Assembly: GCF_002119765.1 (NCBI RefSeq)
Contig: NZ_CP021112.1
Coordinates: 2,908,501 to 2,972,500, forward strand
Source of the DNA: Pseudorhodoplanes sinuspersici
GTDB lineage: Bacteria > Pseudomonadota > Alphaproteobacteria > Rhizobiales > Xanthobacteraceae
Direction of reading: 5' to 3'
DNA: 64,000 nt
The notes beneath the pieces are model-generated. The model saw only the letters and a list, made by a program, of their open reading frames with translations. It had not been told where the DNA came from and did not search any database. This document shows, one piece after another, positions 18,008-62,552 of this stretch; position 1 is the stretch's first letter; every line of letters starts with the position of its first letter. A program made the position numbers and the translations under genes.

Positions 18008-18083
18008 GGGCCCGTAGCTCAATGGTTAGAGCCGGCCGCTCATAACGGTCTGGTTGCAGGTTCGAGTCCTGCCGGGCCCACCA
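18008..18083 (+). tRNA. tRNA-Ile (CAU anticodon, tRNA-Ile2)
   Basis: 76 nt with encoded CCA. The acceptor GGGCCCG pairs with CGGGCCC, the D arm is AGCTCAATGGTTAGAGC, the anticodon loop is CTCATAA with CAT, and the T arm is GCAGGTTCGAGTCCTGC. The sequence follows the tRNA-Ile2 pattern, in which C34 is modified to lysidine to read AUA; an elongator tRNA-Met is less likely because the first acceptor bases and loop match Ile2. The gene is intact and its last 45 bases are the attachment site of the island that follows. Confidence 0.92.
18039..18083 (+). repeat. attL: 3' end of tRNA-Ile (45-bp direct repeat, copy 1)
   Basis: The last 45 bp of the tRNA, from the anticodon loop to CCA, recur without a mismatch at 62508-62552. 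The integrase gene stop lies 14 nt beyond, as expected for the left junction of a tRNA-integrated element. Confidence 0.9.
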
Positions 18084-18097
18084 GCAAAATCAATTAG

Positions 18098-19288
18098 TTA
18101 CGCTCCGGGTTTTTGTTGGTTCATCCTCTCGGCCAATCGAACGACCAATCGATCGTTCTTGATTGGTCTCCCTTCTATTGCCGCTATGGCTCCGCTCATG
18201 AAGTCGGGGTGATGATGGCCGTAGGTCTCGCGCAACGTCTTCTCGCTCATTCCTAAGAAGCCGGCAGCCTCCCACATTGGAGCGCCGTTCTGCATCAACC
18301 AGGTTGCGGCCGTGTGCCGTAGCGTGTGCGGCGATGCGTGTTCGATCCTCGCCAGCTTCACTGCTGTCTTGAAGGAGGTCTTCACGGACTTTACCGGCTT
18401 GCCGTTCCACTCGACGAAGTGATTGACGGCGATGCCCTTGCGCACCCAGCGGCGCATATGCGCAAGAAGCCTTGGCGGAATTGGTGCGGGTGGCTGGCGC
18501 TTGTTCGTTTCCTTCTTGCCCTGTGGAAGGCGATAAAAAACGCCGCGGTCAAGATCCACAAATGACCGCCCGTCTCCCTTGATGGGCGAAGCACTGGCAA
18601 TCGTAGCGGCGCGGTTACCCATGCGCAGACCGATTATGATAAACCGCGCAAGGTGACGCAACGGGCGCTTGTCGGTCTCGACTTTCTGTCCTTTCCTCGG
18701 GCCGCGGTGAATGGTCTGAATCTCGCGATGCCGCCAGCATGTCCACAACAGGTGCGCAGCTTCGCTCCGCTCAAACCATCGATCTCGTGCCTCACCCTTT
18801 GCGGGCAGCGCTACCTTAACATTCTCGCGGTGATAGCCTTCGCTTTGGTGGTGACGGATTGCTGCACGGAAGTCCTCAAGGTCTCGCCTCGAACCTCCTT
18901 CGTTGCCCCGTTTTTTCGCATAGTCCCGGCAATAATCGCCGTTTACCTGATCCAGCGTGTCGTTGCCGCAATGGTCATTAAGCCGGCCGATGCGCTTGGC
19001 CAGCTTGGTGTTGACTCCATCCGGATCTTTGAAATCGAGATAGATTGAAAGAACGTCCGCGATCTTGATCTGATCTAATGGGCGCTCTTTTCGTTTTGGT
19101 TTGTATTTGGCCGCGATGTAGGCGGCGAGCTTCTGTTGCGCGCGTTCAGTTTCGCCCGCAAAGCATCCTGTGGCGTGATGCTTTCGGTCGTCGATGATGA
19201 TCCAGGTCCCGCGCTTGATGACTTTTCCCGCTTTGTTTCGGCGAGGCTTCCGCCACCAGAGCCGGACACCTTTGCTGACAGTTGGCAT
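18098..19288 (-). CDS. tyrosine-type site-specific integrase of the island
   Basis: 396 residues. The catalytic domain has the first Arg in the GLRMGNRAATIA helix, HTLRHTAATWL (HxxR box), and the nucleophile Tyr in RETYGHHHPDF; the N-terminal half is an arm- and core-binding region rich in Lys and Arg. It would cut and join at the tRNA-Ile 3' end. It reads towards the tRNA and its TAA complement (18098-18100) lies 14 nt after CCA. Its first 214 bp overlap the end of the preceding excisionase-like gene, so translation of the two is linked. It appears intact. Confidence 0.92.
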   Translation of the reverse strand: MPTVSKGVRLWWRKPRRNKAGKVIKRGTWIIIDDRKHHATGCFAGETERAQQKLAAYIAAKYKPKRKERPLDQIKIADVLSIYLDFKDPDGVNTKLAKRIGRLNDHCGNDTLDQVNGDYCRDYAKKRGNEGGSRRDLEDFRAAIRHHQSEGYHRENVKVALPAKGEARDRWFERSEAAHLLWTCWRHREIQTIHRGPRKGQKVETDKRPLRHLARFIIIGLRMGNRAATIASASPIKGDGRSFVDLDRGVFYRLPQGKKETNKRQPPAPIPPRLLAHMRRWVRKGIAVNHFVEWNGKPVKSVKTSFKTAVKLARIEHASPHTLRHTAATWLMQNGAPMWEAAGFLGMSEKTLRETYGHHHPDFMSGAIAAIEGRPIKNDRLVVRLAERMNQQKPGA

Positions 19289-19488
19289 AAACGCCTCATT
19301 TCCGCGATGGCCGCTAGGGTGGTGTAATCTTTGCCTGCTGTCTGCTCGATGACAAGCCGGCCCTTGCCTGCCTCCCGGCGCAAGCCACTGGCAGTCATGG
19401 AGCCATCAGGATAGGCCAAGGCCGCCGCGACTTTCAATCGCAGCGGTGCGTTGGGGTCAATGTTTTCTGGCAGCTTCCCGTAGGTCAT
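19075..19488 (-). CDS. excisionase-like/DNA-binding protein
   Basis: 137 residues. RLKVAAALAYPDGSMTASGLRREAGKGRLVIEQTAGKDYTTLAAIAEMRRLC looks like a MerR/Xis winged helix: a helix-turn-helix, a wing with GRL, and then a directed-recognition helix. The C-terminal part is low-complexity (Ser, Asn, Pro). Such genes usually precede tyrosine integrases in rhizobial islands and may promote excision or control integrase level. It overlaps the integrase gene by 214 bp in another frame. The identification rests on pattern and context. Confidence 0.6.
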   Translation of the reverse strand: MTYGKLPENIDPNAPLRLKVAAALAYPDGSMTASGLRREAGKGRLVIEQTAGKDYTTLAAIAEMRRLCQLSAKVSGSGGGSLAETKREKSSSAGPGSSSTTESITPQDALRAKLNARNRSSPPTSRPNTNQNEKSAH

Positions 19489-19512
19489 AGTCTACCTGAA
19501 CTCCTGCATCGA

Positions 19513-19790
19513 TCAAATCCCAGCGATCTGCTCCTCGTTAGAGCGGGACGTTTTAGAAGGCGCACTACTGCGCTGATAATCGTCGATGAACTGTAGGCCG
19601 GCGATAACGTCATCGATTGTTGTCGGTGCAGTCTTGAATGCTTTCCGATATCCTGCGGCGAATTCGCCGGACAAGCGCTCTGCGGATCATCACTGAGCCA
19701 TTTGCCAGAGTTGGCTTGTGTTTGGGCAAGGAAGTCACCACGGAACTGTTTGCGCTTGCAGATTGACGCGGCCGATTGGAAATCGAATTT
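19513..19790 (-). pseudogene. frameshifted relic of a small island gene
   Basis: Two adjacent frames on the minus strand read as protein: CKRKQFRGDFLAQTQANSG near 19690-19780, then after a shift near 19680 ERLSGEFAAGYRKAFKTAP and DDVIAGLQFIDDYQR, ending with TGA at 19513-19515. It lies 24 bp upstream of the excisionase-like gene in the same direction. I do not know the family. The stretch 19790-20160 holds nothing that I can support. Confidence 0.4.
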
Positions 19791-20165
19791 CTTGATACGT
19801 CAATGTAACAGACATCGTCCGTAATCGATGGCCAGAGACCACGTTCGCAAATGATCGCAAATTGACGAAACGCTCGCGCGCAAAAATACTTGCGTCTTGC
19901 AGAATGGAGATGGCTACGGACAGAAGCGAAAAGATTACAATCGTCTGGTTCTAGGTTTCGACCCCCGACGTCATCGATTGGAAAAAAGACTGAGCGCCGG
20001 CTGTGCCCGATCTTCTCCTGCGACGACCCATGATCAGCCGGAGGCACGGCAGTTGCTCCAACTCTGGTTCTATGCCGTCGAAGTGAGCCGTGCTTCAGCT
20101 GTTTAGTACTGGCGGATGGCAAGCACCGATTGCCCAGCCGCCCTCGTAGACAGTCTGTTGCGCAC

Positions 20166-20221
20166 GAGCATCAGACTACGAATCTGGGGGGTCAGAAGTT
20201 CGAATCTCTTCGGGCGCGCCA
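20166..20221 (+). repeat. 3' part of tRNA-Arg (ACG), displaced copy 1
   Basis: The sequence has GAGCATCAGA, loop CTACGAA (anticodon ACG), TCTGG, the T arm GAAGTTCGAATCTCTTC and the end GGGCGCGCCA. Only the part from the D-stem to CCA is present. The same segment recurs at 35709-35754. It is a typical attachment-site scar. Confidence 0.75.
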
Positions 20222-21158
20222 TTTGCGTACAAAACTGCGAACCCCAAGGCCCGATTTTTGCGGCGCCCGCGACGACCTGTTCGAGGGTCGCTTTATCGCC
20301 GATGATCCGGATGGCGTGATCGTCGACCGCGATCCGATCTACGACAGACTGGCTGTCGGCCTTGCGGAACGGGATCTCACCGCTGGGGATGTTTTCGTGC
20401 ATGACCCGCCCGAACCGGGCAAGCGCTTCCGGGTCAATGGTGATTGACGATGCGGTAGGCCTGACACGATCGAGTGCAGCCTGGGCCCGCTCACGGTCAA
20501 ACTTGAGTTCGGAAATCCTCGCCCTAAGGATATCGTCCTAGTCCGTCAGGCCATCCTCAACCATTTTATAGAGCCGCTTCAGCTCTTCATCGGCCTCGAC
20601 GACCTCGGCACGCCGAAAGACGATCGACTTCGGCCGCCTTTTCTGCACGCTGGGTGGCGGCGGTGACAAGGATGGCCGACAGTCGTTCCGGATTGAACAA
20701 GCGATCAGCCAGATGCTCGACCACAAGATTGTCGAGCCGGTCCATCGGGATAAACCGCCCTTTGCACGCAGTCTTTCCCTGTCGCATGCAGGTCGAGCAC
20801 GTGTAGTATTTGTGCACTTTGCCAGTCTTGGATGTGCCGGTCCGCTATGTCATCACGCCGCCGCAGGTTGCGCAGGTGGCGAGCCCCGTCAAGGATCGGG
20901 CCGGTGACGACCCGCGGGCTGTAACGCGCGGATCACGGGCTTTGAGAGTGGCCTGAACTGCATCGAATTCCTCCGGTGCGATAATGACCCGTACCTCGAC
21001 CACGATGTGTTCGCTCACTGGCTTCTGCCGAAGCGTCTTGGAGCAACGTCGATTGAAAATCCAGGAGCCGACATAAACCGTGTTCGTCAGTATGCAGTGA
21101 ACACTGGCGACGCCGAACCGCGAGCCTCGGCGCGTGCGATATCCGAGCGCGGTCCATC
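20205..21158 (-). pseudogene. large serine recombinase, C-terminal relic
   Basis: Read on the minus strand through several shifts and stops, the segment gives RRGSRFGVASVHCILTNTVYVG, IVVEVRVIIAPEEFDAVQATL, GLATCATCGGVMT, HKYYTCSTCMRQGKTACKG (zinc ribbon), DRLDNLVVEHLADRLFNPERL, a coiled coil with DEELKRLYKMVEDGLTD, and MHENIPSGEIPFRKADSQSVVDRIAVDDHAIRI. This is the recombinase plus zinc-ribbon part of a large serine recombinase. The N-terminal resolvase domain is absent and the relic ends at the MarR gene, so the element has lost this enzyme. Confidence 0.75.
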
Positions 21159-21160
21159 AA

Positions 21161-21631
21161 CTAACGCAGTATGACTTTCTTTAGCAGGTCGGTCAGCGTG
21201 TCGTGCTCGGCCGCGCTGAGCGGAGAAAAGGTCTCCTTCGATATCTCTCGTATCGTCACTATGGCTTCATCGGCGATTCGCCGTCCCTCATCCGTCAGAT
21301 CGATGGCGACGCGGCGGCTATCCAGCGGATCTTCACAGCTCTTGATCAGCCCGTGCGTTCGTAATCGATGGATGACGCCGGTGATCGTGGCCGAATCGTA
21401 ATGGATCAACCTTCCGAGATAATTCTGCGAACACGGTCCGACCTCCCGCAGCTTAGCCAATGTTGAGAATTGTGGAGGCGTGAGATTCTCAATCATTTTC
21501 GATGTGAAGATCGTGGTGTGCGTGCGAAGCGCGACGCGCAACAAGAATCCCGGCTGATCATCAAGAGAGTATGAAGTGGCCGTCTCCTTTGATTTCTTGG
21601 TGGCTGGGTGTGACGGTTTGGCCTGCGGCAT
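21161..21631 (-). CDS. MarR-family repressor of the pyridine operon
   Basis: 156 residues. The winged helix is clear: LTPPQFSTLAKLREVGPCSQNYLGRLIHYDSATITGVIHRLRTHGLIKSCEDPLDSRRVAIDLTDEGRRIADEA. MarR repressors bind palindromes as dimers and release on binding an aromatic acid. It is divergent from the molybdenum hydroxylase operon, with three regularly spaced palindromes in between, the same arrangement as nicR and the nic genes of Pseudomonas putida. Nicotinate, 6-hydroxynicotinate or a related acid is therefore the likely inducer. The start at 21631 has a purine-rich region upstream but no strong site. Confidence 0.88.
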   Translation of the reverse strand: MPQAKPSHPATKKSKETATSYSLDDQPGFLLRVALRTHTTIFTSKMIENLTPPQFSTLAKLREVGPCSQNYLGRLIHYDSATITGVIHRLRTHGLIKSCEDPLDSRRVAIDLTDEGRRIADEAIVTIREISKETFSPLSAAEHDTLTDLLKKVILR

Positions 21632-21897
21632 GAAATTCCTTCATTGATGAACGCAGAATGCAGTGCGGCGTTGTTGCAGGAGCAACCTACGAACTCGGAA
21701 CTACACAGAATTTGAGCGATATGTATCGCGGATCTGAGCTGCTTGCTACATCCCGGCGTGTTGAACCTCTCTAAATGCTTGGAGGTCGTCGGTCCGACTG
21801 GATCAACGTTCCCCACCTTGCTCATGCTGAAGCTGGCGCGTGGCCGTTGAGCGCGACCAGCAGATTCGCGCCATTAGCTAATAAAGCACCCGCAATG

Positions 21898-21947
21898 CTT
21901 GTTTGCAAGTTATGCACTTGTGAACAAGTATTGTGCTTGCATACGAG
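21898..21947. promoter_or_regulatory. triple MarR-type operator array
   Basis: Three CTTG-N4-CAAG-type sites lie in the divergent promoter region: CTTGTTTGCAAG (21898-21909), CTTGTGAACAAG (21917-21928, extended to a perfect ACTTGT-GA-ACAAGT) and CTTGCATACGAG (21936-21947, one mismatch). Their centres are exactly 19 bp apart. The rest of the 421-bp gap shows no other feature. Confidence 0.6.
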
Positions 21948-22052
21948 TGAATTGAGCGCTACCGTTCCGATCAAGATGGGAACGGGCGGCGGTGGCGCTT
22001 TTCAAGTGCTGACGCTGAGCGGTCTCGGTGCGGCGAGGGGTGGTTCAAGCTC

Positions 22053-24311
22053 ATGGATAAGGCGACGGCCCTCATGAATGTTCGGGCCGATTTGATCGAG
22101 AAAGTCACGGGTAGGGCGGAGTTTGTGACCGACCTGGATGTGCCTGGGATGCTGCACGGTGTCGTCGTGCGCTCGCCGGCGGTGCATGCACGTATTCGGT
22201 CCATCGACGCATCGGCGGCTCGCTCCGCCGCAGGCGTGGTTGATGTCTTGACTGGCGCTGACGTGGAATCGTTCGGTCAATGGGGGCTATTGCTTAGGGA
22301 CCGCCCGCTGCTTGCGGTCGATCGCGTGCGCTATGTCGGCGAGCCCGTTGCGGTGGTCATTGCCGCGACCATTGAAGCGGCGGAAAATGCGGCCGAACAG
22401 GTTTACGTGGAGTACGAGGAGCTTCCTCGCGCGGCTACGATCGAGGCGGCGCTCGCAGAAGATGCGCCGCTGATTCATGATCGTCACGACTCGATCAATG
22501 ACTTCTATTTCAAGGGTGGTGCGAAGCCGGTCGCAAACACCAATGTGTTTCACACCTTCTGCAACGATACGGGCGACGTCGATGCGGCAGAAGCCACAGC
22601 AGCCTACATTCATGAAGATCGCTTCCGATTTCCGGCGATTTTTCATTACGCGATGGAGCCGCATACAGTCATCGCTGACTTCAGGGGCAACGCGCTCACC
22701 GTTTGGTCGGGAGCGCAGACACCGGCGGCGGTGCAGAAAGTTCTGTCGCGGATATTCGATCTTCAGCTTGCCAAGGTTCGCGTCATCGTTCCGTTCGTAG
22801 GCGGAGGATTTGGCGGCAAGGCTTCCGTGAAGATCGAGCCGCTTGTGGCTGCCGCATCATGGAAAGTCGGGCGTCCTGTTCGCGTTGCGCAGTCGCTCGC
22901 CGAATCAATGCTGACGTGCCGCCGTCTTGGCGCCGATATCCGAATCCGCACGGCTGTGGACGCGGAAGGACGGATCGTCGCCAAGAGCGCAAAGATTGTA
23001 ATGGACGGTGGCGCCTATGCGGATACCGGTCCCGCGGTTGCGACAAAGACGGCGAACCGCATCATCGGACCGTACGCGATACCCAACCTGCGACTGGACT
23101 CGTCGGCGGTCTATACCAACACCGTTCCGGGCGCGGCTTTCAGGTCGATCGGCGGGCCGCAGGCGGTTTGGGCCGCGGAATCCCACATGGACAATGTCGC
23201 GGCAGCGATCGGTCTCAGTCCAACGGAGTTTCGCCTGCGCAATCTGGCAGCGCGCGGACAACGCATTCGTCCCGATCTGCGTGCGCTGGATGTCGACATG
23301 AGCGAACTGATCGGGCTGGTCGGACAGTCGCTTGGATCCAACCCGCAGCCTTCGAGCTCCGTCGCGCGTGGCCTTGCTGTTGGGGCTACCGATCCGGGGA
23401 TCGTTCCAATCGGTAATGCGGTCGTACGTCTGAAGATTGACGGGTCCGTTCTTGTCGCGATCGCGAGCGTCGAAATCGGGCAGGGTTCGCACGCGACGAT
23501 GGCTCGCATCGCTGCGCAAACGCTCAACCAGCCGCTATCTTCCGTGACTGTTCTCACAACCGACACGGCAGTCGCTCCTTTCGATTGGGGAACGGGCGCG
23601 AGTCGGTCGACCGTTATCGTTGGTCTGTCGGTGGAGAATGCGGCGCAGGATGCAGCCAAACAGATTCTCGATCTGGTGGCAGACGTATGGAGTTTGCCGC
23701 TCGACCAATTGTCGCTGGTGCCAGGAGGTGTTTCGACCAGATCCGAGGTTCTGACCTTCCATCAGATCTTCCATCGCGCGTTCGGAGTCGATTCTGGCGA
23801 GGTGATCGGTCGCGGCGCCATCACGCCCCGCTCAAACAACGGAGCATTCGCAGAGGCGCCGCTGTTCTGGGAGACCGCGGCGGGACTGGCGGAAGTCATC
23901 GTCGACGAAGATACGGGGCAGATATCGCTCAAACGCTACGCGACAGCGGCCGACGTTGGCCGGGTGGTGAATCGCGTCGCGGCCGAGGGGCAGGACGAAG
24001 GGGCCGCAATACAAGGACTTGGGCATGCGTTGTTCGAGGCGCTCGAGTTCGAGGACGGTCAGCCGATCAACGCGACGCCGATCGACTACACGATTCCGAA
24101 CATAGATGACGTGCCGGAAACATTCTCCACGATTCTTGTCGAAAATGAGGATGGTCCAGGTCCTCGCGGCGCCAAAGGTATGGGTGAAGGCGCCATTCTC
24201 CCGATCGCGCCGGCAATCGCCAACGCGCTGTATGCCGGCTACGGGATTCGAATCACGGACCTGCCCATGACGCCAGAAAAGGTCTGGCGCGCTCTTAAGC
24301 AAAGGAGCTGA
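22053..24311 (+). CDS. molybdenum hydroxylase large subunit (nicotinate dehydrogenase-type)
   Basis: 752 residues of the xanthine dehydrogenase/aldehyde oxidase family. The a/b hammerhead domain (about 15-125) is followed by the Mo-cofactor domain with VPFVGGGFGGKASVKIEP, GAAFRSIGGPQ, EIGQGSHATMARIAAQ and the active-site Glu in AKGMGEGAILP. It should hydroxylate a heteroaromatic carbon next to ring nitrogen, with electrons passing to the FAD and 2Fe-2S subunits encoded downstream. The context (NicC, NicF, NicD, NicX) points to nicotinate to 6-hydroxynicotinate. An alternative start at 22074 exists. Confidence 0.88.
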   Translation: MDKATALMNVRADLIEKVTGRAEFVTDLDVPGMLHGVVVRSPAVHARIRSIDASAARSAAGVVDVLTGADVESFGQWGLLLRDRPLLAVDRVRYVGEPVAVVIAATIEAAENAAEQVYVEYEELPRAATIEAALAEDAPLIHDRHDSINDFYFKGGAKPVANTNVFHTFCNDTGDVDAAEATAAYIHEDRFRFPAIFHYAMEPHTVIADFRGNALTVWSGAQTPAAVQKVLSRIFDLQLAKVRVIVPFVGGGFGGKASVKIEPLVAAASWKVGRPVRVAQSLAESMLTCRRLGADIRIRTAVDAEGRIVAKSAKIVMDGGAYADTGPAVATKTANRIIGPYAIPNLRLDSSAVYTNTVPGAAFRSIGGPQAVWAAESHMDNVAAAIGLSPTEFRLRNLAARGQRIRPDLRALDVDMSELIGLVGQSLGSNPQPSSSVARGLAVGATDPGIVPIGNAVVRLKIDGSVLVAIASVEIGQGSHATMARIAAQTLNQPLSSVTVLTTDTAVAPFDWGTGASRSTVIVGLSVENAAQDAAKQILDLVADVWSLPLDQLSLVPGGVSTRSEVLTFHQIFHRAFGVDSGEVIGRGAITPRSNNGAFAEAPLFWETAAGLAEVIVDEDTGQISLKRYATAADVGRVVNRVAAEGQDEGAAIQGLGHALFEALEFEDGQPINATPIDYTIPNIDDVPETFSTILVENEDGPGPRGAKGMGEGAILPIAPAIANALYAGYGIRITDLPMTPEKVWRALKQRS

Positions 24312-24315
24312 GGAC

Positions 24316-24771
24316 GTGCAATTTTCAATGTCGATGACGCTTCCGGCTGCTCCCGCCGATGTCTGGAACACACTGACCGAGGTTGCGCGCGTCTCTCAGT
24401 GCATTCCGGGATGTGAGGATGTCGAGGAGATTGAGAGGCTGTCGTCTTACAAGGCGATCATGAAGCAGAAGATCGGCCCGTTCAAAATAGAGGTGCCCGC
24501 CGACATCATCGTGGAGTCCCTGACTGAACCGTCACATGTGCGTACACGCGCCAGCGGCCGCGACAAATTCACAGGGACGCGGCTGGCGGTTGTACTCGAC
24601 GTGAGATTGATGCCGCAGGAAGAAGGCGGCGGGTCCACGCTTGATCTTCAGGCGGAGGTTGATGTGCAGGGACGCCTCGCCTCGCTCGGCTTCGGGATCA
24701 TCAAGCGGCGCGCCGACCAAAATTTCGAAGAGTTCGAGCAACGGCTCAAGACGATGTTGGAGGCATGCTGA
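24316..24771 (+). CDS. CoxG-like SRPBCC carbon monoxide dehydrogenase-type accessory protein
   Basis: 151 residues. MTLPAAPADVWNTLTEVARVSQCIPGCEDVEEIER, YKAIMKQKIGPFKIEVPADI and the C-terminal GFGIIKRRADQNFEEFEQRL are the CoxG/SRPBCC pattern. In CO dehydrogenase clusters CoxG helps recruit or mature the enzyme at the membrane. It starts with GTG at 24316 behind AAAGGAGCTGAGGAC, 4 bp after the large subunit gene. It lies between large and medium subunit genes, so it is probably a maturation partner of this hydroxylase. Confidence 0.88.
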   Translation: MQFSMSMTLPAAPADVWNTLTEVARVSQCIPGCEDVEEIERLSSYKAIMKQKIGPFKIEVPADIIVESLTEPSHVRTRASGRDKFTGTRLAVVLDVRLMPQEEGGGSTLDLQAEVDVQGRLASLGFGIIKRRADQNFEEFEQRLKTMLEAC

Positions 24772-24774
24772 ACC

Positions 24775-25650: not shown

Positions 25651-26132
25651 CCCAGTTGGTCAAGATTGCATTCTCATTGAATGGGCGGCCGGTGGAAACA
25701 TCAATTCCGCCCAACACTTTGCTGATCGACTTGGTGCGGGATTGTTTTGGATTCAAAGGGACAAAGCGTTCCTGCGATATGGAGGTGTGCGGCGCTTGTA
25801 CGATGCTACTTGACGGCGAGCCAATCTCAAGCTGCACCACGCTCGCTGTCGACGCTGATCAATGTGAGGTCACGACCATTGAAGGTGTGACCCCCGCCAG
25901 TGGCATGTCACGCGTGCAGGAAGCGTTTGTCGTTCACGGCGCGATTCAGTGCGGCTTTTGCACGCCAGGATTCGTTCTCGCAGTCACCGCGCTTTTGCGA
26001 CGCAATCCCGCCCCAACTGACGAGGAGATTCGCCGTTACCTTCGCGGAAACCTGTGCCGCTGCACCGGATATGCGAAAATCTACGAGGCCATCAAAAGTC
26101 TTGCCAGCGAGGCAAACGCCAACGCTGCGTAA
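25647..26132 (+). CDS. molybdenum hydroxylase 2Fe-2S subunit
   Basis: 161 residues, normal for CoxS-type subunits. The plant-type cluster is bound by SCDMEVCGACT...SSC and the second, helical cluster by CGFCTPG...CRCTGY. All eight cysteines are present. The ATG at 25647 overlaps the previous TGA; a start at 25629 is possible but lies inside the upstream gene. It links the molybdenum centre to FAD. Confidence 0.92.
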   Translation: MTQLVKIAFSLNGRPVETSIPPNTLLIDLVRDCFGFKGTKRSCDMEVCGACTMLLDGEPISSCTTLAVDADQCEVTTIEGVTPASGMSRVQEAFVVHGAIQCGFCTPGFVLAVTALLRRNPAPTDEEIRRYLRGNLCRCTGYAKIYEAIKSLASEANANAA

Positions 26133-54429: not shown

Positions 54430-54715
54430 CAATACATTGCCCTGGGGCATTTACCCATTGAGCAATTAAACAGCAGCGATAGCTGCATAGCAATTCGTTC
54501 TTGATCTGCCTTGAAATGCAAGAAAATTACGCATTTACGGGCGTTTAATTGTGCGGCTGGGCGATCAATGGGCTTATAGCTTCAAGGTATACGATCCAAT
54601 TATATCTCCGATTAATAATTTGTCTTTGTGGCGCCGGCGGTTTTGCTCCGTAATTGGGTGCCGGGTCTCGGCGGCATTGATAGCCGCAGCGGTCAGCAAC
54701 AAACGGAGAGCCCAG

Positions 54716-55909
54716 ATGTCGCAACGCTTCGTAAGCCCCCTTCCTCTGATCGCTGTGATGGCGGCCGTGCTGATTGCAGGCCCGGCGGTGGCTCAACAGG
54801 AGCCCTGCATCGGAAACAGCGGGCCGTTGACCGGTCCCGCAGCTTTCGGCGGTGCGGCTGTCAAATACGGTGCGGAAGTCGCGATTGACGAAATCAACGA
54901 GAAGGGCGGTGTACTCGGCAGGAAGCTGCGTTTCGTCCAGTACGACGATGCCGGCGCTCCGCCACGCGGCGTCGACAATACGCGCCGCATTGCGCTCGCA
55001 GACAAATGTATCGCGATCTTCGGCGGCTATCACTCGACTGTAGGTCTTGCTCAGGTCGATCCCATTCAGGAAATCGGAATTCCCTATATTGGCACCATCG
55101 CTGCGAACACGAAGATCATCGAGCATGGCAAGACGCCGAGCTCCATGTTCCGCGTCTCCGCCAAGGACAAGTGGGTCGCGCACTTCCTTGTCGAACAGGC
55201 GATGAAAGCCACGAAGAACGGCAAGATCGCCTTTATTTACGAGAATACCGGCTGGGGCAACGGCGCTGTGCCCGACGTCAAGGCCGCATTGCAGGCCAAG
55301 GGCAAGGAACTCGTAACCGCCGAGACGTTCAACTGGAACGACCAGGATATGTCGGCGCAGGCGATCCGTATTCGCGACGCCGGTGCGGATACGTTGCTGA
55401 TCTGGGGACTGGACCGCGAAGGCAATCAGGTCCTGCGCAGTCTCGACAAGATTGGCTACAAGCCGACCATGATTGCCGCTTGGGGCCTCGCTGGAAATCT
55501 CGGTGAACTCGCAGGACCGCTCGCCAACGGCGTTCGTGTGATGCAGACCTTCACCTGGATGGGCGATATGGATGCCAAGACCAAGGTGATCTGGGACAAG
55601 ATCCAGAAGAAATACGGGCTGAAAGATCCGTCCGATCTGAAGATGGGCTCTGGCACCGCCAACGCCTATGACGCGGTCTATATTCTCGCGAAGGCGATCG
55701 AGAAGGCCGGATCCTACGACTGGGCGAAAGTGCGTCAGGCACTCTACACCGTGGAGCACACCGGGCTCGTTGCGAATTACAAGCCGGCTTTCGATGCCTC
55801 CAATCCTGAACGGCAGGATGCGATTCTTCCGCAATATTACCGCCTGACGGCTTGGCATGAAGGCAAGCTGCTGCCGATCTCGCAGACGCCCTACGGCGCA
55901 AGCCAGTAA
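54716..55909 (+). CDS. ABC importer periplasmic receptor (branched-chain amino acid type)
   Basis: 397 residues. Signal peptide to about residue 27 (GPAVAQQEP), then IGNSGPLTGPAAFGGAAVKYGAEVAIDEINEKGGVLGRKL, the Leu/Ile/Val-binding fold. In catabolic clusters such receptors often bind aromatic acids or amides. The ATG at 54716 is at the signal peptide; a long frame upstream from 54551 is not supported. A strong hairpin after the gene may lower expression of the permease relative to the receptor. Confidence 0.92.
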   Translation: MSQRFVSPLPLIAVMAAVLIAGPAVAQQEPCIGNSGPLTGPAAFGGAAVKYGAEVAIDEINEKGGVLGRKLRFVQYDDAGAPPRGVDNTRRIALADKCIAIFGGYHSTVGLAQVDPIQEIGIPYIGTIAANTKIIEHGKTPSSMFRVSAKDKWVAHFLVEQAMKATKNGKIAFIYENTGWGNGAVPDVKAALQAKGKELVTAETFNWNDQDMSAQAIRIRDAGADTLLIWGLDREGNQVLRSLDKIGYKPTMIAAWGLAGNLGELAGPLANGVRVMQTFTWMGDMDAKTKVIWDKIQKKYGLKDPSDLKMGSGTANAYDAVYILAKAIEKAGSYDWAKVRQALYTVEHTGLVANYKPAFDASNPERQDAILPQYYRLTAWHEGKLLPISQTPYGASQ

Positions 55910-55921
55910 AAGGTACCGGCT

Positions 55922-55944
55922 GGCGGACGCCGCGCGCGTCCGCC
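55922..55944 (+). terminator. attenuator-like hairpin between receptor and permease
   Basis: GGCGGACGC (55922-55930), loop CGCGC, GCGTCCGCC (55936-55944), then CTTTCC. Such intercistronic stems often make the receptor transcript more abundant. Confidence 0.6.
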
Positions 55945-55990
55945 CTTTCCTACTTCCTGAATTCTCCCTTCGTCCTCTTCGAAAGCAGTG

Positions 55991-56866
55991 ATGCAAACTG
56001 CCCTTCAATATGCGTTTTCCGGGCTTGCGATCGGCGGCATCTATGCGCTCGTCGCGCTCGGGTTTCACATCATGTGGTCGGCCGCCAAGGCGGTGAATTT
56101 CGCGCATGGCGACACGCTGATGCTGGGCGCAGTGCTGACCATCATGGGCATGGATGCGGGGCTGCCATTTCCGATTGCTGCACTCGTTTCAATCGCCACA
56201 TCCTGCGTGTTCGGAATCCTGCTTGAGCGTTTCGCGGTACGGCCCTTCGCCAAATCGGCGGCGTCGATCGGCTGGATGCTGACTACCATCGCCGTCGGCA
56301 TCATGCTCGAGGCGCTCGTGACCATGCGCTTCGGCGGGTTCTCGCGGCCGCTGCCGTCGCCCGGCGTGTCGCATGCCATCTCCATTTTTGGCGCGGGCGT
56401 GTATCCGCAGGAGGTCCTGATCCCGGTTTTTGCGATCGTGGTCATGCTCGGTTTCGGCTGGATGCAGCGCAAGACGCTGATCGGCCGCGCCATGCAGGCG
56501 GTTGCGTTTGATCGCAACGCGGCCGCGCTGATGGGCATCAATGTCAACGCTGTGTTTGCTGTTTCCTTTGCGCTCGCCGCCGGATTGGGCGCAGCAGCCG
56601 GCATCCTGGTTGCGCCAGTGACGCAGGCTTCGGCCACGATGGGCCTCATTCTTGGCCTCAAGGGCTTTGCCGTCGCCATCATCGGCGGGATCGCCAGCGC
56701 ACCGGGCGTTGTCGTCGCCGGGCTTGCGTTCGGGATCATCGAGAAATTCGTCGAAGGCTACATCTCGACCGCCGCGCGCGAGATCATCGGTTTCAGCCTC
56801 ATGATCCTTGTGTTGCTCATCTTCCCTCAGGGGCTGTTCGGCAAGCGCGAGGTCTTCAAGGTATGA
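55991..56866 (+). CDS. ABC importer permease, LivH type
   Basis: 291 residues with about eight helices. GIYALVALGFHIMWSAAKAVNFAHGDTLMLGA is the LivH N-terminal signature, and RNAAALMGINVNAVFAVSFALAAGLGAAAGILVAP is the cytoplasmic loop that contacts the ATPase. An in-frame GTG at 55988 directly precedes the ATG. It overlaps the next start by four bases. Confidence 0.92.
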   Translation: MQTALQYAFSGLAIGGIYALVALGFHIMWSAAKAVNFAHGDTLMLGAVLTIMGMDAGLPFPIAALVSIATSCVFGILLERFAVRPFAKSAASIGWMLTTIAVGIMLEALVTMRFGGFSRPLPSPGVSHAISIFGAGVYPQEVLIPVFAIVVMLGFGWMQRKTLIGRAMQAVAFDRNAAALMGINVNAVFAVSFALAAGLGAAAGILVAPVTQASATMGLILGLKGFAVAIIGGIASAPGVVVAGLAFGIIEKFVEGYISTAAREIIGFSLMILVLLIFPQGLFGKREVFKV

Positions 56867-58662
56867 CGTCGCGCGGCTCGCTTACGGGCTTTGGCCTATT
56901 CATCGCGTTTCTCGTCGCCGTCCCGTTCGCGGCCGCAAACGAATACGAATTGCGGCTGTTTATGCTGTTCCTCATCTACGCCGTGATCGCGCTCGGGCTG
57001 AATATTCTTGTTGGGCTCGCTGGCCTCGTATCGCTCGGGCAGGCCGGGCTGTTCGCGCTAGGCGCTTATACCGGCGCAATTCTCGCGACCAGGGCCGGCT
57101 TTGACCTCATCACGGCAAGTATCTCTGCAATCGTGATTGCGAGCCTGTTTGGTGCCTTGCTTGCCTATCCGACCGTTCGGGTCCGCGGTGTATACCTCGC
57201 TGTGGTTACAATCGCCTTCGGCCTGATCGTCGAGAACGCGGCGATCGAGTGGCAGGGTCTGACGGGCGGTCCTATGGGGATCACCTCCATCCCAAAACCG
57301 ACGTTGTTCGGCATCCCGCTTACGGGATATCGCTATTATGCGGTGCTGGCCGTGGTGCTCGTCGTCGTTGCCGCTGTCACGCACAATCTCAAGCGCTCGA
57401 AATACGGGCGTGCGATGCTGGCGGTCTCCCAGAGCGAAACCGCCGCGCGCAGCCTTGGCATCAATGCCACAGGCACCCGTACATTGGCCTTCGTGATCTC
57501 GGCGGCGACGGCGGGGCTGGCTGGCGTGCTCTATGCTTTCCTGAACTCCTATATTTCTCCGGACATTTTCACCTTTTCCGATTCCATCCGCTTTCTGCTG
57601 ATGGTGATTTTTGGCGGCGCGGGAACGACGACCGGCGCGCTGATCGGCGCATTTATCCTCACGTATCTCCCGGAATATCTGCAGCAATTGCAGTACTGGC
57701 AAAAGTTTGCCTACGGTTTGCTGCTGGCGCTTGTGATGTTCGTCCTGCCGCTCGGCGTATTCGGGACGGCGGTGCATTTGTGGCGGCGCTGGCGGCCATC
57801 ACCGCGCTCGGTCAACGCGTCCGAGGGGTTGCCGATCGAGCAGGCGCTTGGGCTGACAGGTGATCCCAAGCAACGGCTGGCGACTGAACTTGTGGCGCAA
57901 GGATTGACCGTGCGGTTCGGCGGTCTCACGGCTTTGAATGATGTCTCGCTGCGTGTGCGCCCGGCCGATATTCACGCGTTGATCGGACCGAATGGCGCCG
58001 GAAAGTCCACTTTCGTCAACACGATCACCGGATTTTACACGCCCGACAGCGGACGTTTTGAACTCAGCGGCGTCCCGCTGGATGGCCTTTCGCCCCATGC
58101 CATCGCGCGCGAGGGAATGGCGAGGACATTCCAGAACACCGAACTGTTCGGCGGCATGACGGTGCTCGAGAATGTCATGGCCGGATATCAGCACCGTTTC
58201 ACTTATAGCATCCTCGACGCCGCTTTGCGGACGCCGCGTTTCCTGCGCGAAGAGGAGGATTGCCGCCGCGCCGCGATTGGTTTGCTCGAATTCGTCGGAT
58301 TGACCGACTACGGAAACGAGGTGGCTCGCTTCCTGCCATTCGGTCTGCAACGACGGTTGGAAATCGCCCGCGCCTTGGCGCCAGCGCCAAGGCTTCTGCT
58401 GCTCGATGAGCCCGCAGCGGGACTGACTGTCCATGAGATAGATGAGCTCGATCGCATGATCCGGCGGATCTCCTCGCTCGGCATTTCCGTCCTGCTGATT
58501 GAGCATCATGTTGACCTGATCATGTCCGTCGCAGATCAGGTAACAGTCCTGGATTACGGCACCGTCATCGCGAGCGACACGCCGGACGAGGTACAGCGCG
58601 ATCCGCGTGTGATCGAAGCCTATTTTGGTGGTTCGGCGGCCATCCACAAGGTGGCGTCATGA
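56863..58662 (+). CDS. LivM permease fused to LivG ATPase
   Basis: 599 residues. The first 310 form a LivM permease (LNILVGLAGLVSLGQAGLFALGAYTGA, ESETAARSLGINATGTRTLAFVISAATAGLAG-type loop). After a linker comes a LivG ATPase: Walker A GPNGAGKST at 375-383, signature LPFGLQRRLEIARAL, Walker B LLLLDEPAAGLT, and the C-terminal LivG tail. Fusion of the two is seen in some proteobacterial operons. The stop is overlapped by the LivF start. Confidence 0.92.
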   Translation: MTSRGSLTGFGLFIAFLVAVPFAAANEYELRLFMLFLIYAVIALGLNILVGLAGLVSLGQAGLFALGAYTGAILATRAGFDLITASISAIVIASLFGALLAYPTVRVRGVYLAVVTIAFGLIVENAAIEWQGLTGGPMGITSIPKPTLFGIPLTGYRYYAVLAVVLVVVAAVTHNLKRSKYGRAMLAVSQSETAARSLGINATGTRTLAFVISAATAGLAGVLYAFLNSYISPDIFTFSDSIRFLLMVIFGGAGTTTGALIGAFILTYLPEYLQQLQYWQKFAYGLLLALVMFVLPLGVFGTAVHLWRRWRPSPRSVNASEGLPIEQALGLTGDPKQRLATELVAQGLTVRFGGLTALNDVSLRVRPADIHALIGPNGAGKSTFVNTITGFYTPDSGRFELSGVPLDGLSPHAIAREGMARTFQNTELFGGMTVLENVMAGYQHRFTYSILDAALRTPRFLREEEDCRRAAIGLLEFVGLTDYGNEVARFLPFGLQRRLEIARALAPAPRLLLLDEPAAGLTVHEIDELDRMIRRISSLGISVLLIEHHVDLIMSVADQVTVLDYGTVIASDTPDEVQRDPRVIEAYFGGSAAIHKVAS

Positions 58663-59402
58663 GCGAAGCCGACATCCTTCTGAAAGTCACCGGTCTGCAT
58701 GTGCGCTATGGCGCGGCGACGGCCGTGCGTGGTGTCGATATGCACGTGCGCCGCGGCGAACTGGTTGCTGTGATCGGCAATAACGGCGCGGGGAAAACCT
58801 CGATCCTGCGAGGTATATCTGGCCTTGTACGACCGAGTGCCGGGCAGGTGACTTTCAACGGCGTTGAGACTGTCAGTTTCGCCGCGCATCAGAAGGTCAG
58901 GCTCGGTCTCGCGATGATTCCCGAGGGACGGTTGATTTTCGCGGATCAAACGGTCGAGGACAATCTGATCCTCGGTGCCTATATCCGATGGTCGCGCGAG
59001 CGGCCGCGCATCCGCACTGAGTTTGACGAAATCTTCGATCTTTTCCCGCGTCTGAAGGAGCGATTTCATCAGCGTGCCGGCAGTCTGTCTGGCGGCGAGC
59101 AACAGATGCTGGCAATCGCGCGCGGTCTGCTGTCGCGGCCGGCATTGCTGATGATCGACGAACTATCGCTCGGCCTCGCGCCGAAGATCGTCGATCAGCT
59201 GATGGGTTTGTTGCGCGATCTGAATGCCAAGGGACAGACGATCCTGCTGGTCGAGCAGTTGGCCTCGCATGCGCTGGCCATCGCGCAGCGTGCCTATGTC
59301 GTCAATCACGGTCATATCGAGCTCGAAGGAACGTCCGCGGAACTCTCCGGATCGCCGAAGGTGATGGAGACCTTCCTCGGCAAAAAGCGCAACGTCGTCT
59401 GA
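58659..59402 (+). CDS. ABC importer ATPase, LivF type
   Basis: 247 residues. Walker A GNNGAGKTS, a MIPEGRLIFADQTVEDNL segment typical of LivF, signature LSGGEQQMLAIARGL and Walker B LLMIDELSLGLAP. It pairs with the LivG half of the preceding fusion. The ATGA overlap with the preceding gene indicates translational coupling. Confidence 0.93.
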   Translation: MSEADILLKVTGLHVRYGAATAVRGVDMHVRRGELVAVIGNNGAGKTSILRGISGLVRPSAGQVTFNGVETVSFAAHQKVRLGLAMIPEGRLIFADQTVEDNLILGAYIRWSRERPRIRTEFDEIFDLFPRLKERFHQRAGSLSGGEQQMLAIARGLLSRPALLMIDELSLGLAPKIVDQLMGLLRDLNAKGQTILLVEQLASHALAIAQRAYVVNHGHIELEGTSAELSGSPKVMETFLGKKRNVV

Positions 59403-59421
59403 ATCAGAAAAGGAGATCATA

Positions 59422-60123
59422 ATGGGTCAGCGCGTCATCGACTTGAGCCTCTTGATTGAAGACAACATGCCGGCCCACAAGCTGTTTCAGCGGCCTGTCA
59501 TGACCATGCATCTCAGCCACGAATCGACGCTGGCACTTAATCTCGGCGTTCCGGGCGACGCCATGACGTTCCAGACCAATTTCATTGCAACGCTCGATCA
59601 CGTCGGCACGCATGTGGACGCGTTCCGTCATGTCAATCCGAAGGGCGCACCGGTCGACCAGATGCCGCTTGAAATGTTCATGGGCAAGGCCGTGTGTTTC
59701 GACCTCCGCCATATTCCGGACCTCGGCGACATCGCGGTCAAGGACATGGAAGAGGCCGAAAGGAAGGCCGGCATAAAGGTGGATGGCCACATCGTCCTCC
59801 TGTGCACCGGCTTTCACAAGCGCACCTATCCGACGCTGGATTCGGTGTGGAAGAATCCACTGCTAACAGTGGAGGCCACACGTTGGCTCTATGACCGCGG
59901 TTCGAAGATGCATGGCGTCGAAGGACCGTCCACCGACAAACCCTCCGACAATATCTTCGCGCAGCACCGGCTCTGCCGCGATCTCGGCATCAGCCACTGG
60001 GAGTGGCTGGTGAATCTGGAGGAGGTCCTCGGCAAGGGCGAATTCCAGTTCTTCGGCGTTCCGCTGAAGTTCAAGGGCGGCTCCGGCTCACCGGTCCGCG
60101 CTTTCGCGATCGTCAACGCATAA
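59422..60123 (+). CDS. cyclase-family metal hydrolase (kynurenine formamidase/isatin hydrolase-like)
   Basis: 233 residues. HVGTHVDAFRH (His60, His64, Asp66, His70) is the metal motif of the cyclase family (HxGTHxDxPxH), which includes bacterial KynB and isatin hydrolase. IDLSLLIEDNMPAH opens the domain. It should hydrolyse an amide or lactam of an aromatic compound with a divalent metal. It follows LivF by 19 bp and an AAGGAG, so it belongs to the import operon and may act on the imported substrate. Confidence 0.85.
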   Translation: MGQRVIDLSLLIEDNMPAHKLFQRPVMTMHLSHESTLALNLGVPGDAMTFQTNFIATLDHVGTHVDAFRHVNPKGAPVDQMPLEMFMGKAVCFDLRHIPDLGDIAVKDMEEAERKAGIKVDGHIVLLCTGFHKRTYPTLDSVWKNPLLTVEATRWLYDRGSKMHGVEGPSTDKPSDNIFAQHRLCRDLGISHWEWLVNLEEVLGKGEFQFFGVPLKFKGGSGSPVRAFAIVNA

Positions 60124-60186
60124 TGCGTTGGACCGCGTCCGGGCGATACGCGTTGCCCGGGCGCGCTGCATTTGCGGGGGTGTTTT

Positions 60187-61590
60187 ATGTCGGCTGAATT
60201 CGACGCCATGTCTGCGATTGAGTTGCGGCAGAAGATCGCTCGAAAGGAACTCTCTCCCGTCGAGGTCACCAGACGCGCACTTGAACGAGCAGAGGCAAGC
60301 CAGAGCACGCTGAACGCCTTCTTTGTGCTGTTGCCGGAGGCGGCGATGGCGGCGGCGCGCGAAGCGGAAGACGCCGTGATGCAGGGCAAGCCGCTCGGCT
60401 CGCTGCACGGCATTCCGTTTTCGGCGAAGGACCTGATGGCGGTCGCCAATGTGCCGTATGCGTCGGGCTCGCGCGCAATGGCGAACAATATTGCTGCCGT
60501 CGATGCGCCTGCGGTCGAGCGGGGCAAAGCAGCCGGGGCGATCCTGATCGGCAAGTCCACAACCAGCGAGTTCGGCTGCAAGCCAGTGGGGGACAGTCCG
60601 CTCACCGGCATCACGCGTAACCCGAGAAACCTGAACAAGACACCCGGCGGATCGAGCGCCGGTGCGGCCGCCTCGGTCGCCGCCGGCATTACGCCATTTG
60701 CGCTTGGCACCGACGGTGGCGGCTCGATCCGCATTCCCTGCAGCCTGACTGGGCTTGCCGGGATCAAGGGGCATTTCGGACGTGTGCCGGTGTGGCCAAC
60801 GTCGGCGACACCGACGCTCGCACATGTCGGCCCGATTGCGCGCAATATGGAAGATGCTGCACTGCTGTTTTCGGCGATTGCGGGTTACGACGGGCGAGAT
60901 CCGTTCAGTGTCGTAGGCCCAGTACCTGATGTGTTGGCGGCGACCAGGGCACCCGTCGCCGGCATGCGCGTCGCACTCAGCCTGACGCTAGGTTATGCGC
61001 GGCCTGATGCCGATGTCGTGGCGGTGATCGAAAAAGCTGGGAAGACGTTGGAAGACCTCGGCTGTATCGTCGAGACAGTGGACACGGTTTTCGAGAAAGA
61101 TCCGGCTGATCTCTGGACCGCTGAATTCTACGCCGGTGTCGGTACGCGGCTGCGCGGGGTTGTCGCGACGCAGCGCGATCTGCTCGATCCGGCGGTCGCC
61201 GAAATACTGGAGGCCGCGCTCGCGCAGAACATGCGAGACTACTATGAGAAAGTCTTTGAACGTTACGTCTTCCGCGAAAAGGTTCGAACCTTCTTCGAGC
61301 ATTACGATGCCCTTGTTTCGCCGGTCGTGCCGGTCAGTTCGCTCGATGTCGGCGTGAATATCCCGCCGCATCTTATTGATCGCAATCTAGTTTCCTGGGT
61401 GTACTACACCTATCCGTTCAACCTGACCGGCCAGCCGGCGACGACAATCTGCGCCGGGCTGGGCGACGGCGGCATGCCAGTTGGATTGCAGATCGTCGGG
61501 CGCTCACTTGGCGAGTTTGATGTTGTGCGGTTAGCATGTGCATTTGAGAGAGTTACTGTACCCGGCACAGCGCCTGTGAGACAGATTTAA
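60187..61590 (+). CDS. amidase-signature hydrolase
   Basis: 467 residues. The Ser-cisSer-Lys triad is visible: Lys81 in FSAKDL, Ser156 in GGSSAGAAASVAAG, and nucleophile Ser180 in TDGGGSIRIP. It hydrolyses an amide to acid and ammonia. GGGGGTG before the ATG at 60187 decides the start over 60172. It ends the importer operon; with the cyclase-family enzyme it suggests uptake and hydrolysis of an amide or lactam. Confidence 0.9.
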   Translation: MSAEFDAMSAIELRQKIARKELSPVEVTRRALERAEASQSTLNAFFVLLPEAAMAAAREAEDAVMQGKPLGSLHGIPFSAKDLMAVANVPYASGSRAMANNIAAVDAPAVERGKAAGAILIGKSTTSEFGCKPVGDSPLTGITRNPRNLNKTPGGSSAGAAASVAAGITPFALGTDGGGSIRIPCSLTGLAGIKGHFGRVPVWPTSATPTLAHVGPIARNMEDAALLFSAIAGYDGRDPFSVVGPVPDVLAATRAPVAGMRVALSLTLGYARPDADVVAVIEKAGKTLEDLGCIVETVDTVFEKDPADLWTAEFYAGVGTRLRGVVATQRDLLDPAVAEILEAALAQNMRDYYEKVFERYVFREKVRTFFEHYDALVSPVVPVSSLDVGVNIPPHLIDRNLVSWVYYTYPFNLTGQPATTICAGLGDGGMPVGLQIVGRSLGEFDVVRLACAFERVTVPGTAPVRQI

Positions 61591-62507
61591 CGATTTGAGC
61601 AGTGGAGGATCTCTCATCATAATCCTTGAGGAATGGAGATAAGACAGAAATCCGGGTCATCAGAATCATCTTCCGAGCGGATTGCGAAAGACATTTGCCG
61701 GGCACGGCTGAAGATGATCCGACGTGTCCGCGAAACCTTCTCCTGGGTGTGGATGTGAACAGAGCGCGAAACGTCGGCGTCGCACCATGAGTTCTCCTGC
61801 GGTCAAACGAGGGCCGCTTGAAAGGCGTCCACCAAGCGTTAAAAGCCGTTCGAAAAATTCTGCCGCACGTGCACAAGCCATCAATGAAGGTTTGCCAATT
61901 TCGGAAATTCGGTAAGTGTAACAGTGTGCTCGATCAAAACGGAAAACTGGCAAACTTATTGATTGTTCTAAGAAATAACTCTTCCCTAGGGAGCACCATC
62001 TTGCTTGCTCCGGGCTAAAAGCGTTCTAAGATCTTGAAGGGCATGGTGGTTTTTGGAGTTCGAAAGCCGTCATTCGGTAGCACTTCAGATGCTCGTCGAA
62101 TGTCAGACGAAGCACAAGTTTGACCCAGTGAATGCGGAGGTCGTAGCCGCCGCTCGCGAGATCACAAGCCAAACCTGCAGCTCAAGCTGATGACGACATG
62201 GTGCTGCAGAACCTCCGCCTCCGTGCGTGTGACTCTTCTCGAAGGAGAGCTCGGTAACGCGAGTGAGGAGGGCATTCGCCATCTGCGCGGTGTTACGGCT
62301 GTGAAGGAATCCTGCTTCAGCCCTCTCGGAGGAAGCGGGTAAGCGTCCGTTCAGCGACATCTCGATCAAGATAGATTTTGGTGCTGATGTTCCTAACGAT
62401 ACGGACCAATCACGGACCAAACAATAACCGGCACCGAACGTGAACAGAAGCAACCGAGAACGATGGAAAACGACGTTTTTTCCTGGGATTCCGGTCCGTC
62501 CTATGCA
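61591..62507. other. gene-poor right end of the island
   Basis: About 900 bp in which I support no gene. Open frames on both strands are short and mutually overlapping. TTCCCTAGGGAGCACCA at 61982-61998 resembles the end of tRNA-Glu and may be a decayed attachment site. A 62100-62400 segment reads weakly as protein on the minus strand (ALLTRVTELSFEKSHTHGG) but I cannot assign it. Confidence 0.4.
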
Positions 62508-62552
62508 CTCATAACGGTCTGGTTGCAGGTTCGAGTCCTGCCGGGCCCACCA
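62508..62552 (+). repeat. attR: 45-bp copy of the tRNA-Ile 3' end
   Basis: Identical to 18039-18083 over 45 bp, from the anticodon loop to CCA; the upstream bases (TATGCA) no longer match. It marks the right border of the island and lies 182 bp before the next integrase start, so it can also serve as the left site of a second element. Confidence 0.9.

Follow-up and report, generated by a model that had tools for sequence, protein, structure and literature searches.

Genomic islands stacked in tandem behind one RNA gene are already known (PMC3146451, PMC4383910; these and the following papers are cited for the parts consulted), among them the tandem arrays of ssrA islands in Dehalococcoides (PMC3146451). 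Actinobacterial integrative and conjugative elements (AICEs) have been described with two integrases, two pairs of attachment (att) sites (attL2/attR2) and integration at tRNA remnants (PMC3218068), frequent switching of integrases between tRNA targets is on record (PMC4383910, PMC8627217), and tRNA hot spots are documented in Sinorhizobium meliloti (PMC11476347). Among the titles and abstract openings that we searched, mostly without subscription papers, we found no paper on stacks of halves of different tRNAs in one island, which is no claim that none exists. How an element moves between tRNA targets is seldom visible. Here we analyze a stretch of 64,000 nucleotides of Pseudorhodoplanes sinuspersici (RefSeq contig NZ_CP021112.1, positions 2,908,501–2,972,500; hereafter the window), in which a 44.5-kb span (18008–62552) begins with a tRNA-Ile(CAU) gene, ends with a copy of the 3' half of this gene and holds the 3' halves of other tRNAs in between. 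We consider it fairly probable that what is lodged in tRNA-Ile(CAU) is not one island but a stack of integrative units that were made for different tRNAs.

Results

The tRNA gene at 18008–18083 (+ strand) is intact and is called Met, anticodon CAT, by ARAGORN. It is most likely tRNA-Ile2(CAU), because the two other CAT genes of the genome (loci L044 and L054) resemble initiator and elongator tRNA-Met; we take L044 to be the initiator, L054 the elongator and 18008–18083 tRNA-Ile2. No tRNA-Ile(UAU) figures in the tRNA list of the genome, which is weak support given that the list is incomplete (Ile(GAU), Ala(UGC) and an unbroken Leu(UAA) are also missing). The last 45 bp of the gene (18039–18083), which form the core of the left attachment site, recur identically at 62508–62552. 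Directly 3' of the CCA comes the left outer end, GCAAAATCAATTAGTTA (18084–18100, + strand), which resembles the motif found behind two of the internal halves described below. Int1, a tyrosine recombinase of 396 amino acids without internal stop (18098–19288, − strand), carries a Phage_integrase domain, reads toward the tRNA gene and ends 14 nt from it. The span thus has an integrase beside an intact tRNA gene and, at its far end, a displaced 3' fragment of that gene (45/45) in direct orientation, as expected of a tRNA-integrated island. Its GC content is lower, if mildly, than that of the left flank (61.1% for positions 1–17900 versus 58.7% and 58.1% in the two cargo segments). Elsewhere in the 5.97-Mb genome, the tRNA-Ile end matches a 96% copy on the opposite strand (212964–213008). 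Note that a 24-base match at 300643–300666 of the genome consists of the last 15 bp of tRNA-Ile followed by nine bases of the Int1-type outer end.

A repeat search and a T-arm scan of the region between the Ile copies revealed four more tRNA 3' halves, all on the + strand: (i) an Arg(ACG) half lacking any 5' half (20176–20221), which differs from the intact gene by one inserted base and one substitution when aligned by eye (35/45 ungapped); (ii) a Glu(CTC) half (34983–35026, 44/44), followed by GTAAAATCAATCACTTAG; (iii) a Lys(CTT) half (35363–35407, 45/45), followed by ATTAAATCAATCACTTAG; (iv) a second, inner Arg(ACG) half (35710–35754, 43/45), which ends in TCA instead of CCA and escaped the T-arm scan. 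Identities are counted from the anticodon loop to the CCA against the intact tRNAs of the same genome. The fragments inside this tRNA-Ile island therefore do not all derive from the same target gene, and three of them (Glu, Lys and inner Arg) lie within 0.8 kb. Each half starts at the anticodon loop or a few bases from it, like the Ile half; 5' of the loop, 5–15 of 31–32 positions match. The inner Arg half and the stretch behind it are 73% identical over 162 bp to an Arg half at 537 kb of the genome, and no similar right ends were seen by eye in front of the halves.

Searching the region between the Ile copies with the 28-base ends of 42 of the genome's own tRNAs (up to three mismatches) gave four matches on the + strand and none on the − strand, while 200 first-order Markov shuffles, searched on both strands, gave a mean and a maximum of 0. 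In the whole genome, the pattern GTTCRANYC-N12-CCA has 71 matches (reversed control, 17); sorted against the intact genes by our own judgement, these leave 15 halves or 3' ends, some of them short, and the Arg half ending at 35754 brings the number to 16. Five of the 16 fall in the 44.5-kb span, which is less than 1% of the chromosome. These counts bear on a rival reading, namely one ordinary Int1 island whose internal halves are either chance matches or decayed phage-type tRNA genes. Such an island would agree with a span that is framed by a perfect 45-bp pair and has one integrase gene with an open frame; however, chance is excluded by the shuffles, and decayed genes should retain 5' parts as often as 3' parts, whereas the pieces run from the anticodon loop, or from near it, to the CCA. 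We therefore regard this reading as very improbable.

An earlier note on this DNA had described a composite genomic island in tRNA-Ile. Its anatomical basis holds: the exact repetition of the last 45 bp of an intact CAU tRNA gene at 62508–62552 is confirmed by the repeat search, the integrase ending 14 nt past the tRNA is Int1, the catabolic content is recovered by domain and Protein Data Bank (PDB) sequence matches, and the region does look foreign and composite. The description is incomplete, however, in that four more tRNA 3' halves lie inside and a tandem junction lies at its end. The proposal that the three catabolic modules come in one block is not supported: the nicotinate-type (nic) module is located between an Arg and the Glu half, and modules 2 and 3 are bounded by another Arg half on the left and by the right Ile half.

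By its family, Int1 looks like an ordinary Ile(CAU) integrase, given the tRNA ends next to its relatives and the Ile-dominated clade to which it belongs. Matches to Int1 at E ≤ 1e-20 occur in 65 of 397 genomes of the order, the source genome included. According to our own reading of the tRNA ends that adjoin the integrase at 30 Int1-type loci (again including that of the window), the target is Pro(CGG) in 13 cases, Ile(CAU) in 11, Val(CAC) in one and Arg in one, with no tRNA end found in four; the closest relatives of Int1 are mostly at tRNA-Ile(CAU). In the tree, the clade to which Int1 belongs is supported (98/91) and consists mainly of Ile loci, among which a Pro pair is nested. This counts as Ile the locus L149 of genome G444, where the C-terminus of the integrase faces an intact tRNA-Ile, with a Lys half behind. 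The 45-bp pair is thus the expected core of Int1.

The Ile gene, the Glu half and the Lys half have in common what follows their CCA: AAATCAATYASTTA is present in exactly three copies in the genome, at 18087, 35030 and 35411 of the window, behind these three tRNA ends. Of the 397 genomes, 17 have CCA-NNN-AAATCAA[GT]CACTTA, with 23 sites in all, three of which belong to the source genome (the backwards control gave 0). Nineteen sites stand directly behind a clear tRNA 3' end (Val, Arg, Ala, Lys, Glu, Gly, His, Trp or Phe), one (L198) behind a degenerate tRNA end, and three (L190, L191 and L209) are ambiguous. A variant with two free bases in place of the three seen in the window was found once in each of 13 of 391 genomes, ten times behind a clear tRNA end (Pro, Trp, Ile, Arg, Lys or Asp), once behind an acceptor end only (L146) and twice behind none (L140 and L147). 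With both spacings considered (L139–L151, L190–L212), AAATCAA[T/G]CACTTA is seen right behind the CCA of tRNA genes or halves that stand for ten or more amino acids. We read this motif as the putative outer end of a broad family of tRNA-integrating elements. No protein is common to more than three of the 36 motif loci within about 1.5 kb, and hence the integrase family behind the Glu and Lys halves could not be named.

The layout at the left edge of the span, in which an intact tRNA gene is followed by one recombinase and then, 1–2 kb in, by the 3' end of a foreign tRNA, recurs at other loci. In the source genome it is found (i) at tRNA-Ile itself, with Int1 and then the outer Arg(ACG) half 2,138 bp from the tRNA; (ii) at tRNA-fMet (539 kb), with a 545-codon frame that has all three domains of a large serine recombinase and then, at 2,236 bp, an Arg(ACG) half (45/45) carrying TAAAATCAATGACTTAAC; (iii) at tRNA-Phe (2.335 Mb), with a frameshifted P4-type integrase (33% identity to Int2, the integrase described below) and then, at 1,969 bp, an Arg(TCG) 3' end, a weaker case that consists of 29 identical bases from the T-arm to the CCA and has no anticodon part. 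In addition, G444, which belongs to another genus of the same family, has an intact tRNA-Ile, an Int1-like gene (62% identity over residues 84–378) and then a Lys(CTT) half that lies 1,074 bp in, matches the Lys half of the source genome at 39/45 positions and is followed by CTAAATCAATCACTTAG; this case came from a separate motif search and not from the Int1-homolog loci. The source genome seems to hold several stacked tRNA islands, since tRNA-Phe (2333–2436 kb) and tRNA-Gln (5920–5971 and 0–28 kb) each have two further 3' ends of their own about 66–100 kb downstream.

The right Ile half (62508–62552, + strand, 45/45) is also bordered by an integrase gene. Int2 (62665–63936, + strand), a P4-type tyrosine integrase with arm-binding, central and catalytic domains, starts 112 bp past this copy. 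Int2 has matches at E ≤ 1e-120 in 3 of 199 genomes of the order, its own included, and the two other strong relatives, one of them with an internal stop, show the same placement behind tRNA-Gln and tRNA-Ser 3' ends. The copy at 62508–62552 is therefore a tandem junction between the island and the next element, placed as the left site of the Int2 element. Two units thus share one target, each with a fragment and an integrase: the left Ile site goes with Int1 and the right Ile half with Int2. Being common to Int2, the right copy does not have to mark the place where an Int1 element naturally ends.

Just past the window, an fMet-like half ends at L006:48 and an Arg(ACG) half (43/45) at L006:200, with an IS3-type transposase beyond them, so that seven tRNA halves, all in one orientation, are spread over 20–64.2 kb. 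A terminator-like hairpin is found between the fMet-like and the Arg half (64001–64200, i.e. L006:1–200), and the tRNA-Gln island at 5.94 Mb contains a stretch like L006:1–200 (85% over 163 bp). To the right of the window, two oppositely oriented IS3-type copies (L006:246–1450 and L006:16018–17228, 100% over the 255 bp compared) enclose about 15 kb, and a third copy adjoins a shortened integrase-like frame at tRNA-Gln (L184).

The right-hand neighborhood raises the question of whether the locus is a mosaic made mainly by insertion sequences (IS) and by homologous recombination between islands of different tRNAs, with the halves carried along by chance. The occurrence of IS3-type copies both just right of the stack (about 0.25–1.45 and 16.0–17.2 kb in L006) and in the tRNA-Gln island speaks for it, as does that of an Arg half with a similar upstream stretch beside the fMet-like half at 64 kb and again in the Gln island. 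On the other hand, the seven halves keep one orientation from 20 to 64.2 kb, and no transposase was noticed in the 40 window open reading frames (ORFs) scanned, with no systematic search of the junctions for IS remnants. Altogether, a mosaic of this kind appears quite unlikely to us.

The internal halves divide the catabolic modules into at least two segments. Segment 1 (18084–20175) carries Int1. Segment 2 (20222–34982) opens with a frameshifted remnant (20222–21160, − strand) that runs antisense into the outer Arg half and resembles the C-terminal part of a large serine recombinase. Only two relatives of this remnant were found at E ≤ 1e-12 in the other 198 genomes: one (L189) is located at a tRNA-Arg(CCG) 3' half and resembles the present case in what follows downstream, whereas no tRNA end is seen in the locus of the second. 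A short stretch behind the intact tRNA-Arg(ACG) at 2.52 Mb is weakly similar to the tail of this recombinase (46–48% over 21–24 residues). The remnant is followed by a MarR-family regulator gene (21161–21631, − strand) and by cargo 1 (22053–33122, + strand), predicted to encode a nicotinate-type (2,5-dihydroxypyridine) pathway. Besides genes for a molybdenum hydroxylase, CoxG, an FAD subunit and a TctC/TctB/TctA transporter, this cluster contains, according to matches to PDB sequences, (i) a NicC-like gene (26174–27388; 6-hydroxynicotinate 3-monooxygenase 5eow, E 3.9e-53, ranked after tropone monooxygenase 8rqh, E 7.7e-59); (ii) an isochorismatase-type hydrolase gene (27126–28145; hydrolase 3ot4, E 6e-30, ranked after an N-carbamoylsarcosine amidohydrolase, E 5.4e-32), which we take to be NicF; (iii) a NicD-like gene (28142–29005; deformylase 4l0c, E 6.3e-73); (iv) NicX (29002–30084; 2,5-dihydroxypyridine dioxygenase 7cn3, E 3.7e-87), all on the + strand. 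Homologues of NicX, NicD, NicC and NicF thus stand together, as in a nicotinate degradation cluster, and nicotinate is the predicted substrate; none of the five cargo-1 proteins scanned reached an NCBIfam equivalog cut-off.

At the right edge of segment 2, an NmrA-like gene (34404–34958, − strand; 28.8 bits for a cut-off of 27) matches its Pfam profile at positions 130–269 of 298 only, its N-terminal part ending at the Glu half. This truncation favors the main alternative to the composite circle proposed in the Discussion, namely direct insertion, in which elements of Glu, Lys and Arg type would have entered an existing tRNA-Ile island one after the other at secondary sites, left halves at their left junctions and lost their integrases later. 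The lack of a 5' tRNA part in the halves is also what is expected at a non-tRNA target. Nevertheless, the missing N-terminal part was not seen in a glycine-motif scan of window coordinates 0–170 kb, which is a crude test, and three halves of the same orientation within 0.8 kb, together with a similar layout at three of the genome's own tRNAs, are much to ask of secondary sites. Direct insertion is thus, in our opinion, an unlikely account of the locus. A search for the missing part in 60 further genomes of the family gave no homologue (E ≤ 1e-25).

Segment 3 (35755–62507) holds the remaining cargo. Cargo 2 (37835–52965, + strand) comprises genes for amidohydrolases, TctC proteins, molybdenum hydroxylases, a cupin, a TetR regulator, an alpha/beta hydrolase and an aldehyde dehydrogenase. 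Its block at about 42.8–47.9 kb is also present in Bradyrhizobium and Rhodopseudomonas: relatives of its molybdenum hydroxylase are found at 19 loci, including loci of these genera, with up to 82% identity and several of the block neighbors, and a tRNA end is present at 2 of the 19. Cargo 3 (53497–61590) consists of a LysR regulator gene (− strand) and of genes for a branched-chain-type ABC transporter, a cyclase and an amidase (+ strand).

Alignment with relatives, which the earlier note had suggested as a check, showed that the neighborhood is variable and that the sequence read behind tRNA-Ile is not this island in five of the seven same-genus genomes; no clean empty site was found, and the one shared block lies near tRNA-Lys, at about 159 kb. 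More specifically, the sequence 3' of tRNA-Ile in G397, G400, G401, G402 and G403 (1.2, 5.4, 57, 33 and 38 kb read, respectively) is not this island, its matches being single genes of large families with about 40–55% protein identity. G403, G402 and G397 have an intact tRNA-Ile without an Int1-type match behind it in the sequence read and without a common right flank. An attempt to place the right boundary by synteny failed, as G403, G402, G401, G400 and G397 offered nothing useful in common until about 159 kb (window coordinates), where G401 is collinear with the source genome beside tRNA-Lys. Synteny likewise gave no support to the idea that the native right flank had been displaced and is marked by the Ile half at 213 kb. 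A plasmid origin was also discarded: megablast, which detects near matches only, gave no match for 18084–34978 and 35755–60700 against 72,556 plasmid records.

In G403, a 539-codon frame resembling a large serine recombinase lies directly behind tRNA-Ile(CAU) (L127), so that in a sister species this tRNA apparently serves recombinases of another class. Same-target stacks are seen in relatives: G413 has two Ile halves 1.75 kb apart, and G364 a 13-kb Ile island that ends in an Ile half and is followed by another such left end. Finally, at locus L063 of the source genome (4254828–4255160), about 250 bp separate a 5' half resembling Leu(UAA) from a Leu-like 3' end, and the locus may be a tRNA gene interrupted by an insert or an intron; Rfam returned no match at gathering score for L063 and L006.

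Discussion

We propose the following course for the formation of the stack. The outermost unit would be the one carrying Int1, which reads leftward to the tRNA and whose core, from the anticodon loop to the CCA, would restore the tRNA upon integration. The internal Arg, Glu, Lys and Arg halves would be the attachment sites of units built for other tRNAs. These units and the Int1 module would have come together in one circular composite that possessed more than one attachment site; Int1 would then have opened this circle at its Ile site, leaving the other sites buried and idle. A P4-type element, that of Int2, sits in tandem and shares the right Ile copy. In this model, the composite circle is the reason why the halves lack a 5' part and share one orientation and why a lone integrase stands at the outer edge. 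The circle, the order of events and the present mobility of any part are what we infer.

Several points weigh against such a history. First, no integrase gene survives beside the Glu, the Lys or the inner Arg half, and the reading of these halves as former attP sites therefore stands on their sequence. Second, the other Int1-homolog loci, 29 in number and read with at most 1.5 kb of flank (less where a contig ends or the gene match is partial), show no foreign tRNA end behind the integrase, so that the layout is uncommon; at one of these loci (L092), a tRNA-Ser end lies on the opposite, outer side of the integrase. Third, neither the right-hand end of the whole stack nor the far end of the Int2 unit was located; the variable region runs past the window. 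Fourth, the half at the cut end of the NmrA-like gene fits direct insertion into a gene equally well.

A bolder version of the stack, which we judge improbable, is that it serves as a working device, i.e. a bank of attachment sites with an exchangeable one-gene integrase module at its outer edge. If this were true, swapping the integrase module would re-address the whole cargo to another tRNA, and the internal halves would be spare addresses, not scars. Whether or not it works in this way, a stack of halves of several tRNA species with a single-gene integrase module reads like a record of target changes kept in one chromosome, and it offers a route by which separate degradation modules may end up adjoining. 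There is also a practical side to it: a rule that pairs an integrase with the first repeat can report a single island in places where there are several units.

Mesorhizobium belongs to the same bacterial order as the source genome, and its tripartite integrative and conjugative elements (ICEs) suggest a last explanation, namely that the locus is one part of a tripartite ICE whose partner segments, elsewhere in the chromosome, are joined to it by several integrases. Tripartite ICEs do use several att pairs, one of them at a tRNA annotated Met (PMC8627217), and the 96% Ile half at 213 kb, on the opposite strand, could be seen in that light. Yet no conjugation gene was found in the 40 ORFs scanned of the 192 listed for the window, partner segments not having been searched for in the genome, and the internal halves are clustered instead of lying at separate loci. 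We give this explanation hardly any credence.

Coming back to the stack of units that we favor, each of the described systems shows part of its features. The Mesorhizobium elements are alike in that one element combines several site-specific integrases and att sites, that at the tRNA annotated Met included, and different in that they comprise three chromosomal segments and conjugation genes, as far as the consulted part of the description goes (PMC8627217). Islander-type tRNA islands and tandem arrays display the same integrase, intact tRNA, displaced 3' fragment and anticodon-centered crossover class, but the scheme, as presented in the part consulted, is without internal fragments of other tRNAs (PMC4383910). 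In AICEs, too, an element can have more than one integrase or att pair, tRNA remnants can serve as sites and close integrases can use different tRNAs (PMC3218068), whereas here the extra sites are clustered halves without integrases, beside a single-gene integrase module. The ssrA islands of Dehalococcoides are similar to this locus in that several units are stacked at one RNA gene and a 3' fragment of this target marks each of them, in their respiratory or catabolic cargo and in a CcrB-related recombinase gene whose 3' end overlaps the attachment site (PMC3146451), as does that of the serine recombinase remnant found here. They differ in that their fragments are reported to be those of ssrA alone (PMC3146451), while the present stack combines halves of three other tRNA species with tyrosine and serine recombinases.

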